28,259 bases of DNA, from the IMG/VR virus record IMGVR_UViG_3300042883_000340, positions 1 to 28,259 of that record. One strand, written 5' to 3'. Source of the DNA: a virus. The notes beneath the pieces are model-generated. The model saw nothing but the letters and a program-made list of their open reading frames with translations, had not been told where the DNA came from and ran no database searches. How positions within the stretch are numbered: position 1 is the first letter of the stretch; each line of letters begins with the position of its first letter. Positions 1 to 28,259 of the stretch are shown piece after piece. The translations under genes were made by a program, and so were the position numbers.

Positions 1-315
1 TTTATATGAATTATGGCGGTTTGTAATATACTGCAAATTATCTAAATTATTATTCAATTTATTATTATCTATATGGTCAATTACATACTTTGAACATGAC
101 TTGATTCCATAAAATGATTCATACATTAATCTATGAATTAATTGAAAAGAAGGTTTTTTGTTTTTATACAAATTAACCATTAAATATTTATTAGTTGAGG
201 GCATTGCTTTTAATATTTTAGCATTCCTATAATAAATACTTTTAACTTTTCCTAAGTTGCTTACTTGATATAATCCTTCATATCCAATTACATCTTTCCA
301 AATTTCTGTTTTCAT
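1..315 (-). CDS. HNH homing endonuclease, N-terminal part (gene continues at 28259)
   Basis: The reading frame starts with ATG at 315 and is open to base 1, giving 105 residues. Residues 4-25 (EIWKDVIGYEGLYQVSNLG and following) match the NUMOD4 DNA-binding motif. Further on, IHRLMYESF and IDHIDNNKLNNNLDNLQ carry the HNH nuclease core, followed by the NRHNS signature typical of phage free-standing HNH enzymes. The frame continues without a break into the open frame at 28259-28101, giving a 157-residue protein with NUMOD4, HNH and AP2-like domains in the usual order. Such enzymes cut DNA and promote spread of their own gene. It lies just downstream of ninG and directly behind a structured leader that ends six bases before the ATG, so its expression may be attenuated. 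The family call is strong; whether the enzyme is active is unknown. Confidence 0.9.
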   Translation of the reverse strand, partial: MKTEIWKDVIGYEGLYQVSNLGKVKSIYYRNAKILKAMPSTNKYLMVNLYKNKKPSFQLIHRLMYESFYGIKSCSKYVIDHIDNNKLNNNLDNLQYITNRHNSYK

Positions 316-320
316 AAAAT

Positions 321-368
321 AAAAAAGCCTTAGTGCTTTCGAGATTGCGGACTCTACTAACACTAAGG
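321..368 (-). terminator. Intrinsic terminator upstream of the HNH gene
   Basis: A perfect 8-bp stem, 368-361 with 335-328, is followed by six T (326-321) on the minus strand. It would end ninG transcription and the short leader, leaving the HNH gene dependent on read-through. It forms the 3' half of the structured leader. Confidence 0.8.
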
Positions 369-404
369 TCTTAAATAAGTTTTTAAATGTAGCCGCAATT
401 CTAC
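321..404 (-). ncRNA. Structured leader RNA with loop-loop pairing, terminator type (copy 1)
   Basis: Reading leftward, hairpin 1 has stem GTAG/CTAC (404-401 with 392-389) and loop AATTGCGG (400-393). After an A/T-rich linker, hairpin 2 has an 8-bp outer stem CCTTAGTG/CACTAAGG (368-361 with 335-328), an inner GAG/CTC stem (354-352 with 343-341) and apical loop TCCGCAAT (351-344). Loop bases 399-393 (ATTGCGG) and 350-344 (CCGCAAT) are perfectly complementary over 7 bp, so a kissing interaction is possible. CTTTTTT (327-321) follows, making hairpin 2 an intrinsic terminator. The HNH start codon comes six bases later. A second RNA of the same design but different sequence lies at 3285-3377. The role is inferred as an attenuator or a short stable RNA; I do not recognise a described family. 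Confidence 0.7.
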
Positions 405-408
405 TTAA

Positions 409-416
409 CAAATATA
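409..416 (-). promoter_or_regulatory. Bacteroidetes-type -7 box for the leader RNA
   Basis: TATATTTG matches the TAnnTTTG consensus and sits right after the ninG stop codon, five bases before hairpin 1 of the leader. No TTG is seen at the expected -33 distance, so this is a one-box match. The same octamer precedes the second leader RNA at 3383-3390. Confidence 0.5.
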
Positions 417-941
417 TTATTTATTTTCTAATTGTTTGCATTTTAATTTATATTTCTGCATTAATTCTTTTAATTCGTCTTTTGTCCATTTTTTTTCTTT
501 ACTTCCGTTGTTTTCTAACCATTCAACTTGTTGTGTTCCTATCTTTTTAATTAATTCTTTTCGATATTCAACTTGATTTCCTGAAAGTTGCACGTTACAT
601 TTATAACATGAAGTCCAAACATTGTTTTCGTGAAAACGAACTATTGAATGACCCCCAGCACTTAAATAATGTGAAGCGTGTTTAACTCCGTTTATTGGTT
701 TTTGGCATGATATACAAACTTTTCCATTGTCCCTTAATCGAACGTATTTATTAAATATCTGTTGGGTTAATTTAAGATAATCACTCAAAGTCATTAAATC
801 CAGCTTCGCTTTTGCTTTCGTCTTTTGCCAAGTTTTCTCTTTTACGTCAGCTACAAAAACACGTAAACATTCATCTTTTAAGCAATATTTTTGTAGGAAC
901 TTAATAGGCTCAAACTTTTCTTTGCAGTTACGGCATCTCAT
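417..941 (-). CDS. ninG: NinG/Rap-like recombination protein
   Basis: This 174-residue protein resembles the lambda NinG (Rap) family, structure-specific endonucleases that act on Holliday-junction and D-loop intermediates in Red recombination. The N-terminus has a CxxC pair (CRNC) followed by YCLKDEC, a probable zinc site. The core CISCQKPINGVKHASHYLSA, then GHSIVRFHENNVW and CYKCN, is the family's His/Cys-rich nuclease centre. The C-terminal third is a Lys/Glu-rich helix. The start ATG at 941 overlaps the stop of the upstream HTH gene by four bases (ATGA), indicating translational coupling. It ends the replication operon, and together with ERF and the YqaJ-type exonuclease across the genome ends it makes a Red-like set. 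The family call is confident; the biochemical role is transferred from lambda. Confidence 0.87.
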   Translation of the reverse strand: MRCRNCKEKFEPIKFLQKYCLKDECLRVFVADVKEKTWQKTKAKAKLDLMTLSDYLKLTQQIFNKYVRLRDNGKVCISCQKPINGVKHASHYLSAGGHSIVRFHENNVWTSCYKCNVQLSGNQVEYRKELIKKIGTQQVEWLENNGSKEKKWTKDELKELMQKYKLKCKQLENK

Positions 942-1420: not shown

Positions 1421-2464
1421 TTAAAAAGGTGTTTGTTGGTTCATTTTTTCTGAAAACGAAAGTAATTCTTTTCCGTTTACTATATCGGGTTTCATTAAAG
1501 GTAGTTGTTTAACAGGAAAACTATTCGAAATTGGTTTCGTGTTTTCAGATTTATTTCTTTGAGCGTAAATCTTCCTACCAAAAGCGTCAATCATGTAGTA
1601 TTGATATTTAGAAACATCTAAAAACATTTTGTAAGTTCCTGAAAGTCCAATTCCTTTTGGTTTGCTTTTCGCTAATTTTAAGTGTACTTCATTCTTTTCG
1701 TATATGTTGCCGTCACCATCACTCAAACCCGTTGGCGGTCTCCAAGGTATTAAAACAGCTAATCCTTTACGGAACCATACTTGACCACCAGCAAAATCAC
1801 GAGCTGTTGGCATAGGATAAAAAGTGTTTCCGTCTTTTGTTATCGGTGCCTGGTCCCGAACGTGGTTTATAATGCAATTATGTCGGTTTGTTTTACGTGC
1901 GTTTTTTCGTGCCATTCCTAAAATTCGGCTAAGGTATTTATCTTCGCGTCCTAAGTCTGACATAATATAATTTTCAGTTAATTCATTCCAAGGGTCAATT
2001 GTTGTCGTGTGAATAGTTATTTCGTTTTTACGTTCAATCTCATCTACCATTGTATAAAATTGTTCAAGTGTTAAATCCTCATCTATTGGGTCAATTACAA
2101 TAAAATGCTCGTTAATAAACATTTCAGCTTGTGTTTGTTCCGATTGCGTCATTGTGTTTTCACTTTTGTAGTAAGGTTTTCCAATGTACTTATAACAAAG
2201 TTCTGCGTAAATTTCTGCAGCACTTCCTGTTTCAGGTGAAAAAATAACATGATTCCATTTATGTAAACACGAAAGGTTAATTAAAAACTCAAACCATAAT
2301 TCAGTTTTACCACTTGCTGGAGCTGCTCCGATATAAGTCGTACAACCCTCTTTAATTGTGTATGGTAATAAATCCCAATCCCAACCGATTGATTTTCCTT
2401 TAATATTTAATTCGTTTCGTATGCTGAATAGTTCGCTCGATACGTCGTGTAGTCTTTTATACAT
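1421..2464 (-). CDS. DnaB/RecA-type replicative helicase (no primase domain)
   Basis: This 347-residue P-loop ATPase resembles the C-terminal ATPase half of DnaB/Twinkle helicases. Walker A is GAAPASGKTE (residues 46-55), Walker B ends in IHTTTIDPWN (about 151-160), and the sensor segment IINHVRD (198-204) matches the SHLR/NHVRD position of DnaB-like phage helicases. PTARDFAGGQVWFRKG further on is the conserved region before the last strand. There is no N-terminal primase or zinc-binding domain. It follows immediately after the initiator-like gene (adjacent stop and start at 2465/2464). It probably unwinds the origin and fork while the host supplies primase and polymerase, because no polymerase gene is visible. 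The ATPase call is strong; the replicative role is inferred. Confidence 0.85.
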   Translation of the reverse strand: MYKRLHDVSSELFSIRNELNIKGKSIGWDWDLLPYTIKEGCTTYIGAAPASGKTELWFEFLINLSCLHKWNHVIFSPETGSAAEIYAELCYKYIGKPYYKSENTMTQSEQTQAEMFINEHFIVIDPIDEDLTLEQFYTMVDEIERKNEITIHTTTIDPWNELTENYIMSDLGREDKYLSRILGMARKNARKTNRHNCIINHVRDQAPITKDGNTFYPMPTARDFAGGQVWFRKGLAVLIPWRPPTGLSDGDGNIYEKNEVHLKLAKSKPKGIGLSGTYKMFLDVSKYQYYMIDAFGRKIYAQRNKSENTKPISNSFPVKQLPLMKPDIVNGKELLSFSEKMNQQTPF

Positions 2465-3088
2465 TTATTCGTGTATTATGTTTGGTTTATAAAAATTACT
2501 TTCGTCTTTGCGTAAATAAGGAATAGTGTTTAATAACGTACTTTTCCAATTTACAATTTTACGTGTTTTATTATTTGCTGTAACACTCCAATCATTTACA
2601 ATCCATGATTCATATTTTAACCTAACATCTTCTCGATTAATAGTTGAAGCCTTTTCAATTGCATAAGCTAAAAATTCAGATAACTCAGGTATATAGTTGT
2701 TCTTTGTTTCTTGTTTATCTATACTAACAATGCTTTGACCTTGCTTTGTACCGTGCTTTTGCAGTGCTTTGTCTAATGCTTTGGTATCTGCTTTGGTAAA
2801 ATTTACAATAGCAATTATATTACTTGAATACTGATTTGTTGACTTTTCTAATAACTTAATAAAACCAAAATCAATAAGTTCATTTAATCCTTGCGAGTAT
2901 GTTCGCCAATTTTTAACTCCAATAGCTTCCATTACCATTTGAGAAGGTAACCCAAATTTTTCCTTCCAACCTAATCTATTGCAATGCTCAATAGCAAAAA
3001 AATAAATAGCAGAATGTATTGGTTTAATTCTATCAGGATTCTCAAAAGCAAAATCCCAAAACTTTCGGCTTAATTCGTAACTATTCAT
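2465..3088 (-). CDS. Replication initiator/helicase-loader-like winged-helix protein
   Basis: This 207-residue protein has an N-terminal winged-helix region (about 1-95): helices around HSAIYFFAIEHCNRLGWK, then GLPSQMVMEAIGVKNWRTY and NELIDFGFIKLL, and a wing. A polar linker follows (about 100-130). The C-terminal helical region ends in YESWIVNDWSVTANNK and STLLNTIPYLRKDE, reminiscent of DnaD/DnaT-like loader domains. This family is common beside DnaB-type helicases in Flavobacterium phages and prophages. It overlaps the preceding small gene by eight bases and abuts the helicase gene. It probably recognises the origin and loads the helicase. The C-terminal assignment is by pattern and context, so loader versus initiator stays open. 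Confidence 0.65.
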   Translation of the reverse strand: MNSYELSRKFWDFAFENPDRIKPIHSAIYFFAIEHCNRLGWKEKFGLPSQMVMEAIGVKNWRTYSQGLNELIDFGFIKLLEKSTNQYSSNIIAIVNFTKADTKALDKALQKHGTKQGQSIVSIDKQETKNNYIPELSEFLAYAIEKASTINREDVRLKYESWIVNDWSVTANNKTRKIVNWKSTLLNTIPYLRKDESNFYKPNIIHE

Positions 3089-3266
3089 AATAAAATTTTA
3101 ATAAAAAAGGTAACAATTTTTCAATATCGTTTTTATTTAATCCTACACCCATGTTTTTACTACCGTCCCAAATTTCAAATAACATAGTTTCACCATTACC
3201 AATAACTAATTTCTCAGTACTTGTTTCAGGTGAAAGTTTACAAGTAAATTCTAAATAATTTTCCAT
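3081..3266 (-). CDS. Small conserved-looking protein, first gene of the replication operon
   Basis: This 61-residue acidic protein has an N-terminal strand-rich half (YLEFTCKL, then EKLVIGNGETMLFEIWD) and a C-terminal helix (NKNDIEKLLPFLLKFYYE). No motif is recognised. It is the first gene behind the structured leader and terminator at 3285-3377, so its expression depends on read-through or terminator control. It overlaps the initiator gene by eight bases. The function is unknown; position suggests a part in the early replication programme. Confidence 0.6.
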   Translation of the reverse strand: MENYLEFTCKLSPETSTEKLVIGNGETMLFEIWDGSKNMGVGLNKNDIEKLLPFLLKFYYE

Positions 3267-3284
3267 AATTTAAATTTTTAGCAT

Positions 3285-3338
3285 AAAAAAAACCCCTTAA
3301 ATCCTTTGGGTCTTCACGTCCAAATTCATTAAGAGGTT
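3285..3338 (-). terminator. Intrinsic terminator upstream of the replication operon
   Basis: A 10-bp stem with one wobble pair and an internal second stem is followed by a T-run on the minus strand. It stands between the promoter at 3383-3412 and the gene at 3266, so it is either the end of a short RNA or an attenuator. Confidence 0.8.
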
Positions 3339-3377
3339 TTAATAACTTCTTTAAGTTCTATAATGTGAAGACGAACC
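3285..3377 (-). ncRNA. Structured leader RNA with loop-loop pairing, terminator type (copy 2)
   Basis: Hairpin 1 pairs GGTTC (3377-3373) with GAACT (3358-3354) and has a 14-base loop that starts with GTCTTCAC (3372-3365). Hairpin 2 has a 10-bp outer stem with one G-U pair (3338-3329 with 3300-3291), an inner TTTGG/CCAAA stem (3324-3320 with 3309-3305) and apical loop ACGTGAAGAC (3319-3310). GTGAAGAC (3317-3310) is perfectly complementary to GTCTTCAC over 8 bp. Eight T follow on the minus strand (3292-3285, the first two inside the stem), a strong terminator. A small AACTT/AAGTT hairpin (3357-3343) competes with hairpin 1. The layout matches the leader at 321-404 although the sequences differ. 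The first gene of the replication operon begins 19 bases after the T tract. Confidence 0.7.
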
Positions 3378-3382
3378 GTTTA

Positions 3383-3412
3383 CAAATATACTAATTATTT
3401 TTTAATTACCAA
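3383..3412 (-). promoter_or_regulatory. Promoter of leader RNA copy 2 and replication operon
   Basis: The -7 box TATATTTG (3390-3383) and a TTG (3412-3410) are 19 bases apart, an excellent match to the Flavobacterium/Bacteroides vegetative promoter. The -33 box overlaps the last codons of the lipoprotein gene. The start point would be near 3376, at the base of hairpin 1. Confidence 0.7.
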
Positions 3413-5123: not shown

Positions 5124-5162
5124 ATAAACCAATTTCCCAGCATCAAGAATATGGTATAAACT

Positions 5163-5189
5163 AAAAAACCCCTACCGAAGCAAGGGTTT
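5163..5189 (-). terminator. Late operon terminator
   Basis: On the minus strand a 10-bp stem with two wobble pairs (5189-5180 with 5175-5166) closes a TTCG tetraloop and is followed by a T-run (5168-5163). It lies 44 bases behind the last late gene and separates the late from the early block. Confidence 0.85.
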
Positions 5190-5232
5190 AATAAAACAAT
5201 TAACTATTTATGAAAAAGTCACTGCAAATATA

Positions 5233-10964: not shown

Positions 10965-10972
10965 TATATTTG
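10965..10972 (+). promoter_or_regulatory. Plus-strand -7 box for the chaperone pair
   Basis: TATATTTG fits TAnnTTTG and lies 16 bases before the ATG at 10989, so the leader would be about ten bases. A TTTG 25 bases upstream is slightly far for a -33 box. Confidence 0.5.
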
Positions 10973-10988
10973 TTCAAAAATTATAAAC

Positions 10989-11531
10989 ATGATTGAAGTA
11001 CTTGGGCGTAATATTGCCAACAAAATGAATGAAATTAACATCGAGGAGTTCGAAAAGATTTCAGCTATCCACAACAATCCCGAATTGGATAACATCGAAA
11101 AACAAATCAAAGTTTTTGAAGTTGTCGGAATCGAAGAGGACGAATGGGAAGATTTTAAATACTTTGTTGAAAAGACAAAAGAATTTAATACCGATAATTA
11201 CGATAATAAAGAACCCGTTACAAGTTTAGAAATTGACGGATTTACTTATAATGCCGAAATGCGTTTATCTGTAAAAGATACGAAGCTAATTGAAAAGATA
11301 ATTACCAAAGAAAACAAACATTCGGTTTCTGATATCATGGCTTTGTTGTTTAAAAGAAGCGACCTTTCAAATACGGAACACTACGATAACGCGCACCTAA
11401 AACACAAATCAAAGTTGTTTAGATTGCAAGCCGCTGAAATTGCAATCCCTTATTTAAACTTTGTAACTCAAACAATATCCAGCCATGCTCAAAAACAAGC
11501 TTCCGAAAGCGTGGAATCAAATAACGATTGA
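10989..11531 (+). CDS. Tail assembly chaperone-like protein, copy 1 (opposite strand)
   Basis: This 180-residue acidic protein has the pattern MNEINIEEFEKISAIHNNPE, then IEKQIKVFEVV and EEDEWEDFKYFVEK, as in a Bacteroidetes phage family placed before tape measure genes and regarded as tail assembly chaperones (the lambda gpG role). A second part, LEIDGFTYNAEMRLSVKDTK, precedes a helical tail. It is on the plus strand with its own promoter box, inside the minus-strand late block. It overlaps the next plus-strand gene by 47 bases in a different frame. The role is inferred from pattern and neighbours. Confidence 0.55.
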   Translation: MIEVLGRNIANKMNEINIEEFEKISAIHNNPELDNIEKQIKVFEVVGIEEDEWEDFKYFVEKTKEFNTDNYDNKEPVTSLEIDGFTYNAEMRLSVKDTKLIEKIITKENKHSVSDIMALLFKRSDLSNTEHYDNAHLKHKSKLFRLQAAEIAIPYLNFVTQTISSHAQKQASESVESNND

Positions 11532-12225
11532 ATCCTTTATAGAACTTAGAACCCTATCCGATGAAGATGGGGTTTTTAATTATCAAATTGATGTGCTTTG
11601 TACGTTATTGGATTGCTATCCTGAAGATTTGGACGATATAACAATCGAAGAACTTGAGGATTTATTAATGGAGGTTAAATTTATACGGGGCGAACCGCAT
11701 AAAAACTACAAAAAAGAAATCGGAGTTTATAAATTAAAGCCGTTTAATAAAATTACACTCGGTGAATTTATAAGTTTAGAATCTTATTTCTCGGATAACT
11801 ACATCGAAAAGCTGCTTAACATCGTTGCAATTCTTTACAGGCGGGTTCGTGTTAATGAATGGGGCGATAACGTCTTAGAAAGCTATAATTATCATTCTAA
11901 TGACCGCTTAGATTGGTTCTTAGATTTTCCAATTACTGATGTTTACGGGTTACTACCTGAATACATTAAATTTCGTGAGGATATTATCGACCAATATAAA
12001 AACTTAATGTCCGAATCCTATGAAGATGACTTCGAAACCGATTTAACCTTAGACGCTGAAGAACAAAAGGAATTTGAAGAAGAAAAGAAACAGAAAAAAT
12101 GGGCGTGGGAACAACTTATTTGGTCACTATGCAACGAGGATTTAACTAAGTTTCATGCCGTTTGTGAACTTCCTTTAATTTTGGTCTTTAACTTTTTAGG
12201 AATGAAAAAAGAATTAAGCGTTTAG
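11485..12225 (+). CDS. Tail assembly chaperone-like protein, copy 2 (opposite strand)
   Basis: This 246-residue protein starts (ATG 11485) inside the end of copy 1 and repeats its layout: NQITIESFIELRTLSDED, CTLLDCYPEDLDDI and EELEDLLMEVKFI, then IGVYKLKPFNKITLGEFISL, close to the chaperone family before phage tape measure genes. The end is highly charged (DAEEQKEFEEEKKQKK) and then hydrophobic. Its stop overlaps the stop of the converging gene at 12222. Frame relative to copy 1 is +1, so a fusion by frameshift would need a +1 or -2 slip. Separate translation by reinitiation is simpler. Confidence 0.6.
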   Translation: MLKNKLPKAWNQITIESFIELRTLSDEDGVFNYQIDVLCTLLDCYPEDLDDITIEELEDLLMEVKFIRGEPHKNYKKEIGVYKLKPFNKITLGEFISLESYFSDNYIEKLLNIVAILYRRVRVNEWGDNVLESYNYHSNDRLDWFLDFPITDVYGLLPEYIKFREDIIDQYKNLMSESYEDDFETDLTLDAEEQKEFEEEKKQKKWAWEQLIWSLCNEDLTKFHAVCELPLILVFNFLGMKKELSV

Positions 12226-28100: not shown

Positions 28101-28259
28101 TTATTTTATTGTTTCTGATTTTAAAAAATTATCTCTGCAAATTATAGCTTCATCAATTGTTTTAAAAGTTCCAATGCTTTTTTTAATATTATTTATTCGC
28201 ATTCTAACTAAATAACTGTTTGAATTTAAATAAATATTATAATGACCGCTTTTAGATGT
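28101..28259 (-). CDS. HNH homing endonuclease, C-terminal part (gene starts at 315)
   Basis: Minus-strand codons are open from 28259 to TAA at 28101, 52 residues with no start needed. SGHYNIYLNSNSYLVRMRIN followed by IGTFKTIDEAIICRD is an AP2-like DNA-binding domain, the usual C-terminal domain of NUMOD4-HNH enzymes (pattern GxxxIxxxxxxxxVRMRINxxKxxIGTFxTxxEA). It continues the frame that leaves the window at base 1, in phase and with matching junction (NRHNSYK then TSKSGHY). It ends before the ERF promoter with no terminator in between. Confidence 0.85.
   Translation of the reverse strand, partial: TSKSGHYNIYLNSNSYLVRMRINNIKKSIGTFKTIDEAIICRDNFLKSETIK

Follow-up and report, generated by a model that had tools for sequence, protein, structure and literature searches.

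The window, by which we mean the whole stretch of DNA analyzed, is a virus record of 28,259 bases (G000). On its minus strand, the NinG gene (417..941, Pfam NinG 6.6e-39) is followed by a promoter -7 box of the Bacteroidetes type TAnnTTTG (TATATTTG, 409..416, read from the sequence), which heads a leader in front of an HNH gene. The leader begins with a hairpin, H1 (389..404, GTAG-AATTGCGG-CTAC), in which positions 404-401 pair with 392-389 and the loop carries the word ATTGCGG (399-393). An A/U-rich linker (369..388), with a TTATT that is conserved in alignments A3 and A6, separates H1 from the terminator hairpin H2 (328..368). The outer stem of H2, CCTTAGTG/CACTAAGG, joins 368-361 to 335-328, and H2 also contains AGTA (358-355) and GAA (340-338), a bulged-G (loop E) signature whose two halves are conserved in the class of elements that we call A; in the fold, an inner stem GAG/CTC then leads to the apical loop TCCGCAAT (351-344). 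Six T residues (321..326) form the tract of the intrinsic terminator. Unconstrained folding returned the terminator hairpin and inner stem with the loop open. The first-pass annotation had paired ATTGCGG with CCGCAAT (350-344), and we found this match to be exact and correctly placed on the minus strand.

The ATG of the HNH gene (315-313) lies five bases past the T tract. The gene, also on the minus strand, occupies 1..315 and, for its C-terminal part, 28101..28259, giving a 157-amino acid frame across the junction, and its product matches Pfam NUMOD4 (4.8e-12) and HNH_3 (4.4e-14). As one gene thus spans both ends, we read the record as circular or circularly permuted; an end repeat is absent.

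A second leader RNA (3284..3382, minus strand), preceded by a TATATTTG box (3383..3390, minus strand, seen in the sequence), consists of an H1 stem (3377-3373 with 3358-3354) and then a terminator, and its H1 loop word GTCTTCAC (3372-3365) matches GTGAAGAC (3317-3310). It leads the replication operon, the first gene of which (3081..3266, minus strand, 61 amino acids) had no match in Pfam or PHROG, and in which a replicative helicase-like protein is encoded at 1421..2464 on the minus strand (PHROG 239 DNA primase/helicase, 8.9e-13). Elsewhere in the window, 5150-5232 on the minus strand holds a TATATTTG box and, after it, a plain AAACCC/GGGTTT terminator that is conserved in many relatives; there is no loop matching, and the element is possibly a second short RNA. 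Two plus-strand genes at 10989-12225 (180 and 246 amino acids) oppose nearly all others and have their own TATATTTG box at 10965; neither product had a Pfam or PHROG match.

The two window leaders had been described as differing in base at almost every position, which is overstated, as both share the promoter, the spacing, the TTATT of the linker and the T tract; they fall into two structural classes of one RNA design, the HNH leader in class A and the operon leader in class B. The window genome alone gives weak evidence for the pairing. The 7-nt match of the HNH leader was reached by 407 of 20000 dinucleotide shuffles, and the 8-nt match of the 3285 element by 149 of 20000. That about 2% of shuffles reach a 7-nt match by themselves is the point in favor of an ordinary terminator beside a chance hairpin, without regulation.

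Relatives decide this question. Using the helicase-like protein as query, we assembled about 345 loci from five viral-contig scans for helicase-like and NinG proteins, and scanning these loci for a promoter plus terminator showed the same leader design recurring repeatedly: a TAnnTTTG promoter, H1, a linker, and a terminator hairpin with an apical loop complementary to that of H1. A TATATTTG-type box stands upstream of nearly all related elements, and in some HNH leaders a TATATTAG-like box replaces TAnnTTTG. In class B elements the H1 stem spans 5 bp, the kissing word is 8 nt long and the internal loop is TGAA/GGAT; in class A elements the stem spans 4 bp, the word is 6-8 nt long and the AGTA/GAA bulged-G signature is present. 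The class A element of the window shares all of the family features, namely a TAnnTTTG-type promoter, H1, a terminator hairpin and a covarying loop-loop match. The loop match spans at least 8 nt in all 86 distinct class B sequences and 5-7 nt in all 37 distinct class A sequences, while the words themselves turn over fast, with 20 in class B and 10 in class A. The annotation had named loop complementarity at a similar rate in shuffled sequence as the outcome that would undo the pairing, and the family withstood this comparison: matches of at least 6 nt occur in 86/86 distinct class B elements against 11.7 expected from shuffles, and in 35/37 class A elements against 2.8. When halves were swapped between elements, such matches fell from 45/45 to a mean of 18.7 in class B and from 25/27 to 7.1 in class A. 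A chance origin of the loop match across the relatives is excluded.

Comparing unlike sequences that keep both members of the pairing had been put forward as a natural covariation test, and the loop-loop helix passed it. In an alignment of 32 class B sequences, the kissing helix comprises 8 pairs with 100% of cells paired, and 6 of the 8 show changes on both sides; the whole structure is 99.0% paired, as against 31-49% with partners slid. The class A kissing core is likewise paired, apart from the outermost column, in which the rows are only loosely aligned. Among the HNH leaders (10 distinct rows), each of 22 pairs is formed in every row; the 7 kissing pairs are 100% paired, two of them with two-sided changes (A-U/G-C and G-C/A-U), and the outer H2 stem contains 3 compensatory pairs, also 100% paired. 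Covariance models R1 and R2 were built without the kissing pairs and score the window elements at 90.1 bits (R1, class B leader) and 73.5 bits (R2, class A element), the window itself being in each seed. The distinct R1 and R2 matches that were examined still keep the loop match, with a mild bias in that the seeds were first spotted by loop complementarity. The leader structure is shown by covariation; its transcription and function we infer. With this covariation, and with loop matches kept in more than 100 distinct sequences, the chance hairpin is already refuted and we give it practically no weight. A further possibility is that the repeated word is a DNA operator, bound by a repressor in both direct and inverted orientation and covarying with repressor specificity. 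Two or three copies of the word do lie within some 110 bp of the promoter, but the H1 stem, P2a and P2b each covary as an RNA helix in its own right, the loops sit exactly at hairpin tips and every copy is in an RNA-competent register, and we regard operators as exceedingly improbable.

The family had been placed in this phage, to which it is not confined, being widespread in flavobacterial phages. Tenacibaculum phage Gundel_1 carries a class B leader (E 3e-8, L346:5011-5125) directly before a gene annotated as an antirepressor, behind which lies an HNH gene. Another class B leader, that of Flavobacterium phage FL-1 (E 9e-7; KY421186 18933-19028), heads an operon containing a helicase-like gene. 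HNH genes are preceded by a class A leader in FCOV-F56 (E 2e-5) as well as in 65 Flavobacterium columnare phage records, with a new word, GTAGTGC/GCACTAC. A low-scoring relative in Polaribacter phage Danklef_1 (E 0.5) has a 7-nt match, GGTGGAA/TTCCACC, and heads an operon that holds a relative of the window's 207-amino acid gene; the family is probably present there too. Plasmids that we searched contained no leader element, and GTDB genomes queried with the helicase profile and a strict DNA pattern gave, as a weak negative, no relative and hence no prophage or host copy. Rfam 15 at the gathering score recognized no family in the window, and its matches elsewhere (L041, L058, L012; E up to 5) were at chance level; the literature consulted on kissing-loop phage leaders and on Flavobacterium phage small RNAs contained nothing relevant. 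Given that no Rfam family matched and no description turned up in those papers, we therefore take the leaders to be a new RNA family and a regulator of known kind: a structured RNA of Bacteroidota phages that is well supported as a family and apparently has not been described before.

The lack of Rfam riboswitch matches also bears on whether the leaders form a ligand- or protein-sensing domain, with kissing loops, AGUA/GAA bulged-G module and linker as the binding site and the terminator as expression platform. Such a domain would fit the compact loop-loop architecture upstream of a terminator and the unpaired nucleotides that are conserved besides the helices (AGTA, GAA and TTATT in class A; TGAA/GGAT in class B). 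It would not predict two classes with different internal loops in the same place, replacement of the loop word should not track a ligand, and the additional word copies described below would not be needed. On balance, we consider a riboswitch-like sensor rather unlikely.

Near-complete records carry one strong element each, of class A or class B, and G011 has a second, HNH-leader copy. The element usually heads the replication operon, roughly 650-1000 nt upstream of the helicase gene; the first gene of this operon varies among phages. The HNH leader cassette follows NinG in the window and in L081, L085, L086, L099, L139, L152 and L187, and precedes it in L020, L185 and L283. As leaders of the window class A type occur on either side of NinG and in front of NUMOD4-HNH genes, we assign the leader to the HNH gene, with which it moves. 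HNH leaders have a mean column identity of 89%, and their HNH proteins are 38-87% identical to that of the window; HNH genes without their own promoter (L012, L091, L126, L051) lack the leader. A location before early genes, as first suggested, thus suits the 3285-type element, which leads the replication operon, but not the window HNH leader, which goes with a homing-endonuclease gene. Of the proposed small RNA family, the structured family with its covarying loop-loop pairing stands; a small RNA as such is suggested by the promoter and terminator.

In most replication-type class A leaders, another copy of the H1-loop word lies 0-6 nt upstream of the next gene's start codon, a feature of many relatives that the first-pass annotation had missed. 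This third copy, S2, was found in 15 distinct word sets (GGGCAG, GAGCAG, AGGCAG, GTGCAG, ATGCAG, AAGCAG and GTTGCAG in several contexts). At each of its two variable positions, S2 pairs with the terminator loop in 15/15 sets, where permutation gave a mean of 2.6 and 0/20000 permutations reached 15, values that are only indicative and overstate independence because the word types are phylogenetically related. H1 pairs with H2 in 14/15 of these sets, the exception being a G-U pair, and the predicted energy of H2:S2 equals or slightly exceeds that of H1:H2 in all types. We rejected S2 as a general feature: it is absent from both window elements, from HNH leaders and from nearly all class B leaders, and is confined to replication-type class A and one class B type (L074 and L118, CTTCGAC before ATG). 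At L280:1011-1118, the leader word AGGCAG and the start-codon copy GTTGCAG do not match, a mosaic that looks as if leader and gene had recombined.

Leaders of other designs were also seen at these sites. Upstream of the helicase in L002/L003 and L014/L018 is a different leader type in which a 5' segment (ACAACCAC and ATACGCAACCA) matches the terminator loop; the 5' segment (ACAACCA... in L002/L003, ATACGCAACCA... in L014/L018) recurs at the next start codon, and a short open frame runs through the leader. In L037, L039, L040 and L232, again upstream of the helicase, the leader has a AGAGAGGG/CCCTCTCT-like outer stem and an inner loop (CACACACTT; GCATTGT) complementary to post-terminator bases just upstream of the start codon. 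HNH genes in L056:9761 and L132 have another leader, in which a 5' TGAGGA matches TCCTCA in the loop of the second hairpin and AAACGC is repeated before the ATG. One more candidate loop match (CTTTCA; L064, L065, L072) was left out, as it fails by eye in L054 and L059.

Taken together, these data lead us to favor, by a modest degree, a kissing-loop switch in which a leader RNA of about 85-100 nt, a riboregulator or attenuator of Bacteroidota phages, acts through read-through and competition with S2. The RNA would fold into H1 and the terminator hairpin H2, and the apical H2 loop would kiss the H1 loop over 6-8 bp, a step that covariation strongly supports. Most transcripts would end at the terminator, leaving a compact small RNA, as the map suggests. 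Between the T tract and the downstream gene, which starts about 4-25 nt further on, no promoter was seen; since the sole promoter seen precedes the leader, whose terminator stops just a few bases short of the gene, the map implies that expression needs read-through. No consistent conserved antiterminator stem competing with the terminator was found by eye in the class A and class B alignments. In replication-type class A leaders, the H2 loop may pair with S2 instead, a pairing backed by covariation and of presumed effect; as S2 is a third copy of the H1-loop word and pairs with H2, H1 and S2 compete for H2. The H1:H2 kiss would leave the start codon free, and H2:S2 pairing would hide it. Terminated leaders may join in, since the same code could let leader molecules pair among themselves, and output could then track leader, and hence genome, copy number. 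Through competition and a copy-number response, the replication genes, and the HNH homing endonuclease with its leader, would be kept low and self-limited. The competition model is not general, as the window elements, the HNH leaders and almost every class B leader lack S2; for the window HNH leader and most class B leaders, only termination control or a start-proximal hairpin is possible. At the broader level, the leader is probably an RNA switch limiting replication and endonuclease genes.

The start-codon copy and the changing words would also suit a terminated leader that acts in trans, as an antisense RNA setting superinfection immunity or copy number in the manner of P1 c4 RNA or plasmid RNAI. 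Its loops would target incoming relatives that share the word, binding their leader or start region, and diversification of words would create new immunity groups. Consistent with such a role, leaders that are otherwise conserved carry 20 and 10 different loop words, S2 matches the word at the start codon, and the class B leader of Gundel_1 lies immediately upstream of the "antirepressor" gene, which recalls c4 RNA acting on ant mRNA (PMC12197685). Pairing of H1 with H2 within one molecule would, however, compete with pairing in trans, and an integrase was not recognized among the window proteins scanned. Second targets were absent as well: loop-word matches outside S2 in nearby loci showed no excess (11 against 10.7 and 5 against 9.0 expected), and so lend no support to trans action. 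We judge an antisense RNA unlikely, although it deserves more weight than a sensor domain.

More speculatively, the words of H1, H2 and S2 might make up an RNA-coded specificity system of flavobacterial phages, rewritten jointly in evolution; every lineage would then restrain its own replication and shut out relatives bearing its word, free of cross-talk, and homing endonucleases would have adopted the module as a private switch. We consider this reading unlikely. The three-way covariation of H1 loop, terminator loop and start codon makes the switch hypothesis directly testable, and FL-1, Gundel_1, the F. columnare FCOV/FCV group and probably Danklef_1 are cultured phages that carry the family. 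Phage gene regulation in Bacteroidota is little studied, and the leader family adds a structured RNA there, together with a homing endonuclease shown to travel with its own RNA leader.

Several known systems resemble parts of this arrangement, and in its proposed mode of action the leader comes closest to IsrK, c4 RNA and plasmid replication leaders with competing pseudoknots. HK022 put is a two-hairpin RNA that acts in cis in antitermination and is not known to carry a terminator of its own. Like put, the phage leader is a two-hairpin RNA immediately after an early phage promoter, and a folded leader of the put kind could modify RNA polymerase to pass terminators, its own included. Hairpin 2 of the phage leader is itself a terminator with a T tract, whereas neither a terminator nor an intramolecular kiss is known in put, and the loop word may change freely provided that the pairing holds; put-like antitermination therefore seems very unlikely. 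Type III toxin-antitoxin loci have the order promoter, pseudoknotted RNA, terminator and protein gene, with tandem RNA repeats and a ToxN-like gene. The phage leaders share this order, but each is a single element without tandem repeats, and the next gene is of HNH or replication type and no known toxin. In the replication leaders of IncI-alpha and IncB plasmids (Asano and Mizobuchi 1998, cited in PMC10724649), a pseudoknot is opposed by an antisense RNA. The likeness extends to loop pairing upstream of a replication gene, specificity-setting kissing words and two pairings competing for one site, and the difference is the intrinsic terminator of the phage leader. No conserved opposite-strand box that could serve as an antisense promoter was noticed at the phage leaders when the downstream strands were read by eye. 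IsrK of the Salmonella prophage Gifsy-1 yields a short terminated RNA and a read-through mRNA from one promoter; alternative pairings between leader and downstream sequence switch translation, and the short form acts in trans (PMC4825925). A promoter and a terminator are likewise present in the phage leader, for which alternative pairings and short and read-through forms are predicted; IsrK differs in its unrelated sequence, its long pairing of about 30 nt, and its lack of kissing loops and fast-changing words. The c4 RNA of P1 and P7 is a 77-nt phage RNA with word-specific loops that are complementary to its target gene at the ribosome binding site; it blocks ant mRNA at this site and underlies P1/P7 heteroimmunity (PMC12197685). 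Whereas c4 pairs with ant mRNA, the main partner of the phage leader is the second loop of the same RNA, with S2 only in some classes; a loop complementary to the start region of the following gene, the hallmark of c4, is absent behind both window leaders but present in the replication-type class A leaders.
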